From positions 193,544-257,543 of the forward strand of contig JAKSUV010000001.1 of assembly GCA_024408655.1 (NCBI GenBank): DNA of 64,000 nucleotides, given 5' to 3'. Made by a program: the position numbers and the translations under genes. The notes under the pieces are model-generated. The model searched no databases. It had not been told where the DNA came from and saw only the letters and a program-made list of their open reading frames with translations. Every line of letters starts with the position of its first letter. The first letter of the stretch is position 1. Source of the stretch: Bacilli bacterium (GTDB taxonomy: Bacteria; Bacillota_I; Bacilli_A; RFN20; CAG-826). Shown here one piece after another: positions 30,426 through 34,160 of the stretch.

Positions 30426-30461
30426 GCTTGTTTTATTTATAAACTATCGCCCATCACTACA

Positions 30462-30490
30462 TTGACGGGGGGGGGGATTCGTGATAGATT
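30462..30490 (+). promoter_or_regulatory. promoter with G10 tract in the spacer (candidate phase-variable promoter)
   Basis: TTGACG (30462-30467) is a five-of-six -35 match. It is followed after exactly 17 bases by TAGATT (30485-30490), preceded by TGA as an extended -10. Ten G residues (30467-30476) run from the end of the -35 into the spacer. Gain or loss of a G would change the spacing. The first start codon (GTG 30497) lies six bases after the -10. Confidence 0.6.
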
Positions 30491-30496
30491 TAACTT

Positions 30497-31135
30497 GTGA
30501 AAACTGTTCAAGAATGCATACAAGATTTTTTAAGTAAGATTGCTGAAGGCGTTTATGTTTTAGAATCTGAGGCCGATCTTGTTCTAAAATTTGTTGTTTT
30601 TCTAAGGGAAAATTTTAAGGATGATATAAATCGTTATGTGTTAGAGAAACCATTTTGCGAGTTGATCGACTGTAAGTGCAGCAATGAATGCCAAATCTTC
30701 AATAAGAAAAGTGGAAGAAAGCGAGCGTTAGATCTATATTATAATCATGATAAGCAAACTTGCATTTTTGAGTTCAAATATCATCGGAAAGGTAGCGTAT
30801 CTACATCTACTGATGCTAGTGAAATTTTATTGGATTTAAAAAGATTAAGCTTATTGAACAAGGATGAAGAGACAAAAAAATATTTTATTTATGTTACTGA
30901 CGAGATTATGAATGATTATTTTATAAATAGGACCAGAAAAGATTATTTCGATTTCTATAATAATGGTGATGGAAAATTTATTACGGAAGTTAATTGTTGT
31001 GAAGACAAGGCTCTAAAAAGAGTTTTTAAAGACAATAGTAAAAAGATTAGATTAAAACGCATTAAAATAAATCTTAATTCTAATAACACGAACGATATAT
31101 ATTATGTGAGGGCGTATGAAGTTTTTTCGAACTAA
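30497..31135 (+). CDS. PD-(D/E)XK nuclease-like protein of unknown role
   Basis: A 212-residue protein I do not recognise as a named family. It shows the skeleton of a PD-(D/E)XK fold: an early acidic helix (ESEADLVLKF, residues 23-32), an Asp in a strand (RALDLYY, D79), and EFK (E92, K94) 13 residues on, in CIFEFKYH. Four cysteines (54, 59, 61, 65) between them could hold a metal. The start is GTG at 30497, six bases after the -10, so the mRNA would be leaderless; no ribosome site is seen. Codon use is AT-rich (ATA, AGA, TTT) unlike the flanking cstA and hyd genes, a sign of transfer. It overlaps the following lipoprotein gene by 20 bases, so the two are cotranscribed. Confidence 0.55.
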   Translation: MKTVQECIQDFLSKIAEGVYVLESEADLVLKFVVFLRENFKDDINRYVLEKPFCELIDCKCSNECQIFNKKSGRKRALDLYYNHDKQTCIFEFKYHRKGSVSTSTDASEILLDLKRLSLLNKDEETKKYFIYVTDEIMNDYFINRTRKDYFDFYNNGDGKFITEVNCCEDKALKRVFKDNSKKIRLKRIKINLNSNNTNDIYYVRAYEVFSN

Positions 31136-33596
31136 AACGTTTCTTACATTACTACCATTCATTGCTACTATTTTTGGTTGCAATAATTCGTTCGATGAGG
31201 GACCTTTTACAATTACTTGGCAAAATGATGATGGAACTGTATTAGAAGTTGATTATGATGTGCCACGTGGCACTACCCCTACATATGAAGGAGATACACC
31301 TAGAAAAGATCCGACGCAACAATATACATATACATTTTGTGGGTGGTCACCATCAGTTGGCGTTGCTGAAAAAGATGAAACATATGTTGCAAAATATACT
31401 TCAACATTAAACAAATGCGATGTGATATTTAATTCGGATGGTGGATCATATACCCCAGAAACACAGCATATAGATTATGGATATTATGCTACGCCGCCTG
31501 CTCCCCCAACTAAATATTCTTTTGATTTTACTGGATGGTATGAAGAAGGCGCTACTAAACCTTTTGATTTTTCAAAAACGAAAATTATAGATACAGTCAG
31601 ATTAAAAGCGAAGTGGAAAACCGCAGTATATTGTGTCACCTTCCATTCTAATTGTGGCAAAGATTCTAAGGCCGATGTAGAACATGGTAATAAAGTCACT
31701 CCTCCTACAATTACCAATACCGGTTATGATTTGGACGGATGGTATACAGATCCTACGTTTAGTGAAGGAAGCGAATTCGATTTTTCAACCGGAATAACTC
31801 AAAAAACTGATTTGTATGCCAAGTGGACATTAAAAGATTGCACAGTCAAATTTAACGCAGGCGAAAATGCAGTTATAACTGGCACATCGTCAGAATCTTA
31901 CACTACGCCTGTATTTAAATACGGCAAAACTTGGAAAGAGCTGAATGATAAGACTGGAACAAAAACTGGATATACTTTTAAGCATTGGTCTTTAGAAAAT
32001 TCAGAGACGGGCGAAGCGATATCTGAATCGTATAAACCCGAAGGCAATATAAATGTTTACGCTGTCTATACCATTAATACATATACGGTTTCATTTGTTT
32101 CGCGTGGTGGAAATCAGATAAAAGAAAAGACAGTTAAGCATGGTGATTATATTGATGAACCCATTCCAACATATGGCAATCACGATTTCCAGGGATGGTA
32201 TATAAGTGATACTTATCAAGGCAGCGCTTTTAATTTTGACACTACCCCTATAACTAGTGATTTAACGTTATATGCTAAATGGGACGAATACGATATTACA
32301 TTTGATGGGAATGGCGGATATTTTGACGATACTAAAACAACAACTTCAAAAACAATCAGCGTTGCTTGTGGTGAAACTCCGATAATTGCCAATCCTAAAC
32401 GAGATTCAACTGCAGAATTAGATTACACATTTGACGGTTGGGACAAAGAATTAGAAGTTGTATATGAACCTAATACTTACCAAGCACAATGGGAATCTAG
32501 TGATAGGGAATATACTTTTGAATTTAACGGAACGAGTTGTAGTGCTGACGGATATTCTTCAACTTATCACTACAATGACGATATCGCTTTTACTATTACT
32601 CCTGTTGCGGGAGATTATGTTTTAAGTAAAACAATTTCGGTATCGATTGACGGAGCGGAAACCACAACTGATAAATATTCTTATGATTATATTACCGGCG
32701 CCTTCTCAATGAAATGCATTGGCAATATATCAATAACAGTAACTGCATCACAAGACACTAATTGTACAACGTTATCCTATACAAGGAGCAAAGACGATTA
32801 TAATACAGTGCAATTTGCATACGAAGGAACATTAGATCATGTTAATTGGGGCGATGGCACATATGACACAAATAGTAGCCATGTATTTTCTGAGAACAAG
32901 GATTATACCATTTATATATTTGGCAGTTTAACATCTATTGATTTTCATAAAGGGTCATCTACACTTGCTAAAGGAAATCAATACATCACTTCAATCAAGT
33001 TATCTAGTACGATTAATCATTTTAAGGTCACGAAAGGCGACCCATTTAGTAGTTTTGCGTTTATGGGTAGGTTAACATCTATAACTTTATCTAATTCAAT
33101 CGAAGATAATGACGCTCAAGGTGTGTTTAGAACTACTGGTTTAACTTCAATCGTTTTGCCTATAAATGAAAAATTTACAAAAATTAATCCAGTATATTTT
33201 GCGAATTGCTCAAAGCTAAAAGAAGTGACCGTTTCTAATTACATTACCGTTTTTGATTATAGTGCTTTTGAAGGTTGCAAAACGCTTGATACAATTTCTT
33301 TCCCATCCAATTTAACAACTATTGGGTATAGAGCGTTTTATCAGTGCACTGCATTACCAACACCCACATTGCCCAATTCGTTGACTACAATTGGCCATAA
33401 CGCTTTTGAAGATTGTCAATCATTTACAGGTTCTTTAACTATCCCCGCTAGTGTTGTAAACGTTGGAAGTCAAGCGTTTATTCGTTGCGATAATTTATTA
33501 TCCATTAATGTTCCGTTCCGTGAAGGCGAAAAGCCGGCTGAGTGGGCCGATGATTGGAACGATGGATATAGCGGAACAATTAATTATTTAGAATAA
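31116..33596 (+). CDS. large surface lipoprotein: InlB-type repeats plus BspA-like leucine-rich repeats
   Basis: An 826-residue lipoprotein (lipobox IFGC near residue 22). GAGGG lies four bases before the ATG. About six Listeria-Bacteroides repeats occupy residues ~30-460, marked by FTGWYEEGATKPFDF, LDGWYTDPTFSEGSEFDF, FQGWYISDTYQGSAFNF and recurring LYAKW. A linker of ~130 residues follows, then BspA-type LRR_5 repeats from ~600 (TSIKLSSTINHF, KEVTVSNYITVFDYSAFEGC, LPNSLTTIGHNAFEDC). This is the architecture of adhesins and immune-exposed proteins of gut bacteria. It is AT-rich like its upstream partner. It lies downstream of the G-tract promoter, so its expression may switch on and off. Confidence 0.82.
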   Translation: MKFFRTKTFLTLLPFIATIFGCNNSFDEGPFTITWQNDDGTVLEVDYDVPRGTTPTYEGDTPRKDPTQQYTYTFCGWSPSVGVAEKDETYVAKYTSTLNKCDVIFNSDGGSYTPETQHIDYGYYATPPAPPTKYSFDFTGWYEEGATKPFDFSKTKIIDTVRLKAKWKTAVYCVTFHSNCGKDSKADVEHGNKVTPPTITNTGYDLDGWYTDPTFSEGSEFDFSTGITQKTDLYAKWTLKDCTVKFNAGENAVITGTSSESYTTPVFKYGKTWKELNDKTGTKTGYTFKHWSLENSETGEAISESYKPEGNINVYAVYTINTYTVSFVSRGGNQIKEKTVKHGDYIDEPIPTYGNHDFQGWYISDTYQGSAFNFDTTPITSDLTLYAKWDEYDITFDGNGGYFDDTKTTTSKTISVACGETPIIANPKRDSTAELDYTFDGWDKELEVVYEPNTYQAQWESSDREYTFEFNGTSCSADGYSSTYHYNDDIAFTITPVAGDYVLSKTISVSIDGAETTTDKYSYDYITGAFSMKCIGNISITVTASQDTNCTTLSYTRSKDDYNTVQFAYEGTLDHVNWGDGTYDTNSSHVFSENKDYTIYIFGSLTSIDFHKGSSTLAKGNQYITSIKLSSTINHFKVTKGDPFSSFAFMGRLTSITLSNSIEDNDAQGVFRTTGLTSIVLPINEKFTKINPVYFANCSKLKEVTVSNYITVFDYSAFEGCKTLDTISFPSNLTTIGYRAFYQCTALPTPTLPNSLTTIGHNAFEDCQSFTGSLTIPASVVNVGSQAFIRCDNLLSINVPFREGEKPAEWADDWNDGYSGTINYLE

Positions 33597-33619
33597 TATT
33601 GATATTCATTAATTTTATA

Positions 33620-33648
33620 TTGAGAAATGACCTTTTTATTATTATAAT
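33620..33648 (+). promoter_or_regulatory. promoter of hydCBA operon
   Basis: TTGAGA at 33620-33625, 17-base spacer, TATAAT at 33643-33648, then a leader with GGAGGT before the ATG at 33681. Confidence 0.82.
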
Positions 33649-33680: not shown

Positions 33681-34160
33681 ATGGCAGTTCAAAGTATTGC
33701 GAAAGAGCGCATTATTGAAATATGCGAAACTTACAAGAAGGAACCGACTCCTTTAATGATGATCTTATCCGACATCCAAAAGGAATTTGGTTATATTCCA
33801 CTTGAAGTACAAGAGATTGTGAGTGAACAAATTGGTTTACCTGTTGCCGAAATCTATGGCGTGGTGACTTTCTATTCGTTCTTCTCGCTTGAACCAAAAG
33901 GTAAATACGTCATTGGTGTCTGCTTAGGTACCGCTTGTTACGTCAAAGGTTCACAAGCCTTAATTGATAAGGTCCTTGAAGTCTTAAAACTCCAAAAGGC
34001 GGGGCAAACTACTCCCGATGGTTTATTTACGGTTGATGCTTTACGCTGCATCGGTGCGTGCGCTTTAGCCCCCACGATGAAAATCAATGATCAAGTGTAT
34101 CCCAAATTAAAAGTGAGTGATATTCCTAACATTATTAAAGAATATCAAGCGCGTGGTTAA
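33681..34160 (+). CDS. hydC: bifurcating [FeFe] hydrogenase subunit HydC (NuoE-like)
   Basis: A 159-residue thioredoxin-like [2Fe-2S] protein. The four cluster cysteines appear as GVCLGTACYVKG (two, C-x4-C) and later RCIGACALAPT (C-x3-C). The N-terminal helical part (LMMILSDIQKEFGYIPLEVQEIVSEQIGL) is typical of NuoE and HydC. It is the first gene of a three-gene hydCBA operon and starts after GGAGGT. It would pass electrons between HydB's flavin site and the catalytic subunit. Confidence 0.94.
   Translation: MAVQSIAKERIIEICETYKKEPTPLMMILSDIQKEFGYIPLEVQEIVSEQIGLPVAEIYGVVTFYSFFSLEPKGKYVIGVCLGTACYVKGSQALIDKVLEVLKLQKAGQTTPDGLFTVDALRCIGACALAPTMKINDQVYPKLKVSDIPNIIKEYQARG

Follow-up and report, generated by a model that had tools for sequence, protein, structure and literature searches.

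Does a run of ten G residues, set between the hexamers of a predicted promoter, switch the genes behind it on and off by slippage? We address this question for a locus in a 64,000-nt stretch of DNA from a Bacilli bacterium (hereafter the window, whose features are given by window position and all lie on the + strand). A preliminary description had proposed that the tract is a candidate phase switch ahead of two genes, one nuclease-like and the other for a surface lipoprotein.

A G10 tract in a predicted promoter spacer

The tract lies in an intergenic gap of 71 nt (30426–30496), where direct reading of positions 30462–30490 gives TTGAC-G10-ATTCGTGATAGATT. The predicted −35 hexamer, TTGACG (30462–30467), matches TTGACA at five of six positions and is followed without interruption by the tract, which comprises exactly ten G (30467–30476). 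Because the first of these also ends the −35 hexamer, nine of the ten lie in the spacer; the spacer (30468–30484) is 17 nt long and nine of its bases are G. An extended −10 element, TG-A-TAGATT (30482–30490), has its TG at 30482–30483 and its hexamer, with a match of 4/6, at 30485–30490. The hexamer, the G10 run and the 17-base spacing named in the preliminary description are all present as stated. The site has a poly-G run of at least eight residues between sense-strand −35 and −10 elements, with one G overlapping the −35. Folding of the RNA around the tract was no better than that of shuffled sequences, and we rejected a hairpin there on this ground.

The first gene of the operon encodes a 212-residue protein and starts at a GTG (30497–31135). 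We saw no Shine–Dalgarno sequence before this GTG. If TAGATT is the correct −10, the predicted transcription start falls at or beside the GTG (about 30497), and the message would be leaderless. The start codon is credible, since a 233-residue homologue from a related genome (L315) has its start at nearly the same position. The position of the start also bears on a translational form of phase variation, in which the first gene would extend upstream to include the tract and slippage would shift its reading frame. Coding poly-G switches of this kind exist, for example in the pilus genes of Bifidobacterium breve (PMC9187656). There, as proposed here, slippage controls surface structures of a non-pathogenic gut bacterium, but the B. 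breve tracts are intragenic and lie inside the coding sequence. In the window, a TAA (30491–30493) that is in frame with the GTG sits after the tract, so the first gene cannot be reached from any frame that passes through it. Together with the similar start of the L315 homologue, this excludes the translational explanation for practical purposes.

The two genes of the operon

The 212-residue protein has the residues D79 and E92xK94, and the intact L315 homologue has D79, E92 and K94 in common with it. We found no family match in Pfam, NCBIfam or PADLOC and no relative in the PDB, and a single-sequence structure model (pLDDT 35) was uninformative and does not establish the fold. The protein is compatible with a PD-(D/E)XK nuclease, a label taken solely from the D…ExK motif. 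The PD-(D/E)XK-like assignment of the preliminary description survives as a conserved motif and finds no counterpart among family profiles. The protein is predicted to be cytosolic and has no export signal. Two homologues were found among 395 genomes of the class (in G151 and G154), both from one other genus of the family. We considered whether the nuclease and lipoprotein genes form a conserved unit and rejected the idea, as both of these homologues adjoin other genes. The relative in G151 (L314) is broken by two stop codons and is apparently decaying. We rejected a viral origin, as neither the sequence of this locus nor a relative of the 212-residue protein was found in viral contigs.

The second gene (31116–33596) starts at an ATG, overlaps the first by 20 bases and encodes a probable lipoprotein of 826 residues with the signal …FIATIFGC. 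The protein contains five Listeria–Bacteroides repeats (PF09479; 1e-43, 147.2 bits against a Pfam cut-off of 27) and a BspA-type LRR_5 region (PF13306; 1e-39, 135.5 bits against a cut-off of 27.7), in agreement with the earlier view of a BspA-type lipoprotein gene overlapping a nuclease-like gene. Stretches of the Listeria–Bacteroides repeat type are numerous elsewhere in the source genome. One contig (G000 contig C6, 20000–33000) has a cluster of large Listeria–Bacteroides/LRR proteins that resemble the lipoprotein of the window, with open reading frames of up to 1,511 residues; the relaxed poly-G promoter pattern described below had no match in this cluster.

An insert between cstA and nuoE

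The operon is flanked on the left by a gene for a CstA-type carbon starvation protein (PF02554; 28128–30425) and on the right by a gene for a NuoE-type subunit (33681–34160), which was identified from sequence and serves as a synteny anchor. In the congener G003, CstA and NuoE are 95% identical to those of the window and nuoE follows about 90 bases after cstA; the congeners G004 and G001 likewise have cstA directly before nuoE. Relative to these three genomes, the window carries about 3.2 kb of extra DNA at the junction (approximately 30426–33610). The insert leaves intact the nuoE promoter (TTGAGA-17-TATAAT, 33620–33648), which is conserved in congeners. G+C content falls to about 34–35.7% between 30 and 34 kb, compared with 38–45% in most neighbouring kilobases. 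As the extra DNA is AT-rich and absent from the congeners, both genes arrived as, or within, one insert, with the tract at its left end. We conclude from these comparisons that the two-gene operon is a lineage-specific and recently acquired insert. The suggestion that the AT-rich operon was transferred as a unit is borne out by the dip in G+C and by its absence from three congeners.

In a further congener (G002, L113 3342–8703), two large surface-type open reading frames (685 and 1,082 residues) with a shared N-terminus lie upstream of nuoE. Surface genes may insert repeatedly in the region upstream of nuoE. Matches of 40-mers between L113 and L270 were set aside as probably due to runs of N common to both, since parts of L113 are masked (N).

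Rarity of the tract and of the promoter match

The window has no second run of at least seven G on either strand, and the 913-kb assembly has one further run of at least eight G. The latter (C5:78008, L004) was rejected as a promoter: it has no promoter hexamers, and an opposite-strand gene ends 22 nt before it. Markov models fitted to the window predict 0.004–0.02 G10 runs per window and 0.06–0.29 per genome. A chance origin of the run is unlikely but not impossible; the earlier statement that ten G are unlikely by chance holds to that extent.

The promoter match is 9/12, and 19 such sites occur in 6.5 kb compared with 23 in shuffled sequence. We conclude that a bare promoter match is no better than chance in AT-rich DNA and that the window taken alone argues weakly for a switch. 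When the pattern was relaxed to TTGA-N{2,16}-G6-N{0,10}-TANNNT and sought throughout the source genome, the window site was the sole match and the reversed control gave none.

These counts bear on the reading that the G10 tract is a chance homopolymer in an insertion scar, that the operon is read through from cstA or some other promoter and that the length of the tract is irrelevant. The equal abundance of promoter-like sites in shuffles and the expected number of G10 runs per genome speak for it. So does our search of the 71-nt gap after cstA, in which no terminator was found, so that read-through from cstA into the insert is possible. Against it, the only run of its size in the window falls within this short gap, on the sense strand and in a 17-nt hexamer spacing.

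The length of the tract might instead be a sequencing or assembly error. The source assembly is a draft in 10 contigs that is 67% complete, and homopolymer lengths are error-prone. However, similar tracts of G9–G11 occur in many independent assemblies, including those of the isolates Blautia luti, Coprococcus comes and Streptobacillus notomytis, and a wrong length would still leave a tract. We consider such an error very improbable.

A class of poly-G promoters in the family

Among 88 runs of at least eight G in 57 genomes of the family, a good promoter spacer was found around 24 in the sense orientation, compared with 5 in the antisense orientation and 4.6 expected from shuffled flanks (Fisher p = 1.7e-4). 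In the common family form, the G-tract runs directly into the −10 hexamer. Across 224 family genomes, the pattern TTGA-N{6,16}-G8-TANNNT occurred 45 times, in 32 of the genomes, compared with no match for the reversed pattern and one for its poly-C analogue. The poly-C comparison is the stronger control, because the reversed pattern ignores how common real promoters are. Where sense-strand tracts adjoin the −10, 45 are of G and one is of C, and a C precedes the tract in 29 of 43. We conclude that promoters with a sense-strand G-run in the spacer recur in the family ahead of exported proteins, which upholds the link between such runs and surface-type proteins drawn in the preliminary description.

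The window differs from the common form in that its tract lies against the −35. This layout gave 12 distinct matches compared with 2 (p about 0.01 when the window is excluded), and several of these promoters precede exported proteins (L318–L321 and L323). It is a minority form that is nevertheless over-represented in the family. This over-representation, and the exported products behind such promoters, count further against a chance homopolymer. In favour of that reading is the genus itself: the strict form, with the tract abutting the −10, had no match in the source genome and none in four congeners. On balance, we regard a chance homopolymer as unlikely, though by a good deal the most credible of the competitors to a switch.

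Several individual loci illustrate the range of the class. Four loci in three genera (L318, L319, L320 and L321) belong to an exported family whose GAGFSxWxF-type signal looks SipW-like on inspection, and have the G-tract near the −35. At L148, in the same family of bacteria, a BspA-type LRR lipoprotein lies behind a poly-G promoter, with a terminator-like hairpin in between; the promoter counts for a switch in the window and the hairpin against it. One genome (G040) has similar promoters with poly-C tracts of 10 (L022) and 9 (L078) directly after TTGACG or TTGACA, a rare poly-C counterpart of the tract beside the −35. In another (G166), two poly-G promoters (L185 and L140) lie ahead of membrane proteins; the gene at L185 encodes an MBOAT acyltransferase (PF03062), and a switch of surface modification is possible there.

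Tract length among related promoters

Homologous promoters can differ in the length of the tract. We found pairs with tracts of 10 and 9 (L191/L192 and L126/L127), 10 and 8 (L150/L187), 9 and 8 (L100/L186) and 9 and 11 (L199/L217), as well as pairs of equal length, such as L145/L147 (both 10). In the promoters compared, the hexamers are conserved and the flanks are 70–90% identical, and the differences distinguish species or paralogues rather than individual cells. Over the family, poly-G promoters have tracts of 8–16 and spacers of 13–22 nt. The spread of the spacers is wider than expected for promoters held at one working distance and is what a mix of states would give.

The same data weigh on the alternative that the promoter is real and its G-run serves as a structural spacer, fixed at about ten residues, that does not switch. 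Pairs of equal length, and a strong bias of G over C that is not predicted by slippage alone, are compatible with a fixed spacer. The range of tracts and spacers and the homologous promoters of unequal length are not what it leads one to expect, and poly-G runs of similar size vary in species that have been studied (PMC3639595, PMC7864442). We therefore think a fixed spacer improbable.

Poly-G promoters beyond the family

A scan for TTGAC-N{5,11}-G9-TATAAT with one genome per species returned at least 120 loci. Among the matches listed, most are in metagenome-assembled genomes (MAGs) of Bacilli and Clostridia, and others are in Saccharibacteria, Selenomonadaceae, Treponema, Helicobacter, Streptobacillus, Blautia, Coprococcus and Streptococcus. 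Exported products, called by a simple test for a signal and lipobox, lie behind 63 of 98 poly-G promoters among the matches listed, compared with 163 of 932 (17%) other open reading frames at these loci (odds ratio 8.5, p about 1e-21). Paralogues within a genome may lie behind separate poly-G promoters, as in Streptobacillus notomytis (L213 and L270) and in one MAG (L250, L275 and L278). Two Streptococcus genomes (L304 and L289) encode proteins with YSIRK-like signals behind a poly-G promoter; the L304 protein has an LPxTG-like anchor (LPETG) as well. We discounted a dip at 17 nt in the spacers of the named loci, since the scan demanded nine G and a spacer of at most 19 nt, which clips the distribution. 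In the open papers, a partial coverage of the literature, we found no description of the breadth of this promoter class in uncultured Bacillota.

A candidate switch and its precedents

Bordetella fim promoters contain a poly-C homopolymer and depend on an activator, and the homopolymer controls a surface structure. The preliminary description had offered them as a precedent, aptly as regards a promoter-region homopolymer tied to a surface structure. With their poly-C tracts and their activator dependence, they match the window less closely than do the poly-G tracts of porA and tp0126.

An 11G strain of Neisseria meningitidis had 9G and 10G variants that were able to escape a PorA-specific antibody (PMC3639595). 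As in the window, the porA promoter has a poly-G tract (9–11) between the −35 and −10 elements of a surface-protein promoter, where its length alters their spacing (PMC3639595). For porA, however, length variation and its effect were measured, whereas the window is known from sequence alone and comes from another phylum; moreover, the tract of the window overlaps the last base of the −35, and a cytosolic gene comes first in its operon. In Treponema pallidum, transcription from the tp0126 promoter, which also has poly-G between its −35 and −10, was best at a spacing of 17 nt, the value found in the window (PMC7864442). Both tp0126 and tprL have promoter poly-G tracts ahead of candidate outer-membrane proteins (PMC7864442). 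For tprL, variation in vivo and an effect on a reporter were shown; the genes and organism of both Treponema examples are unrelated to those of the window. The homopolymer of N. meningitidis opc encompasses the −35 (PMC7864442), much as the tract of the window overlaps it, but is poly-C rather than poly-G.

On this basis, we give an even chance to the interpretation that the G10 tract is a promoter-spacer poly-G phase switch like those of porA and tp0126. The two-gene insert would be driven by a sigma-70-type promoter, with the G10 run as an element of its spacer that is prone to slippage. Ten G residues would set the −35 and −10 elements 17 nt apart, the optimal (ON) state; if slipped-strand mispairing added or removed one or two G, the spacing would leave its optimum and transcription would be reduced or stopped. 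Only a fraction of the population would consequently express the nuclease-like protein and the BspA-type surface lipoprotein. We infer promoter activity, variation of the tract at this locus and an effect of its length on expression. A slippage on/off switch is made probable by the G-runs that relatives repeatedly carry in the promoters of exported proteins. The proposal of a candidate phase switch gains from this recurrent class and from the lineage-specific insert, and is weakened by the minority layout, the weak −10 and the cytosolic first gene. That the source genome has no second example, and that its congeners lack the strict form, adds to the weight against it.

The mechanism is already known, and the locus would be a new member. 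A broader view, to which we assign slightly less than an even chance, is that the window belongs to a large and previously undescribed set of poly-G promoter-spacer switches for exported proteins in many uncultured Bacilli and Clostridia. Members of the set would strongly prefer non-template-strand G by the −10, and the −35-side tract of the window would be a minority form. Promoter-spacer poly-G switches have so far been documented in a few pathogens. If the family-wide pattern reflects real switching, slippage-based surface variation would be common in little-studied Bacillota and in other bacteria, and the surface proteins that such bacteria express would be unpredictable from a single assembly.
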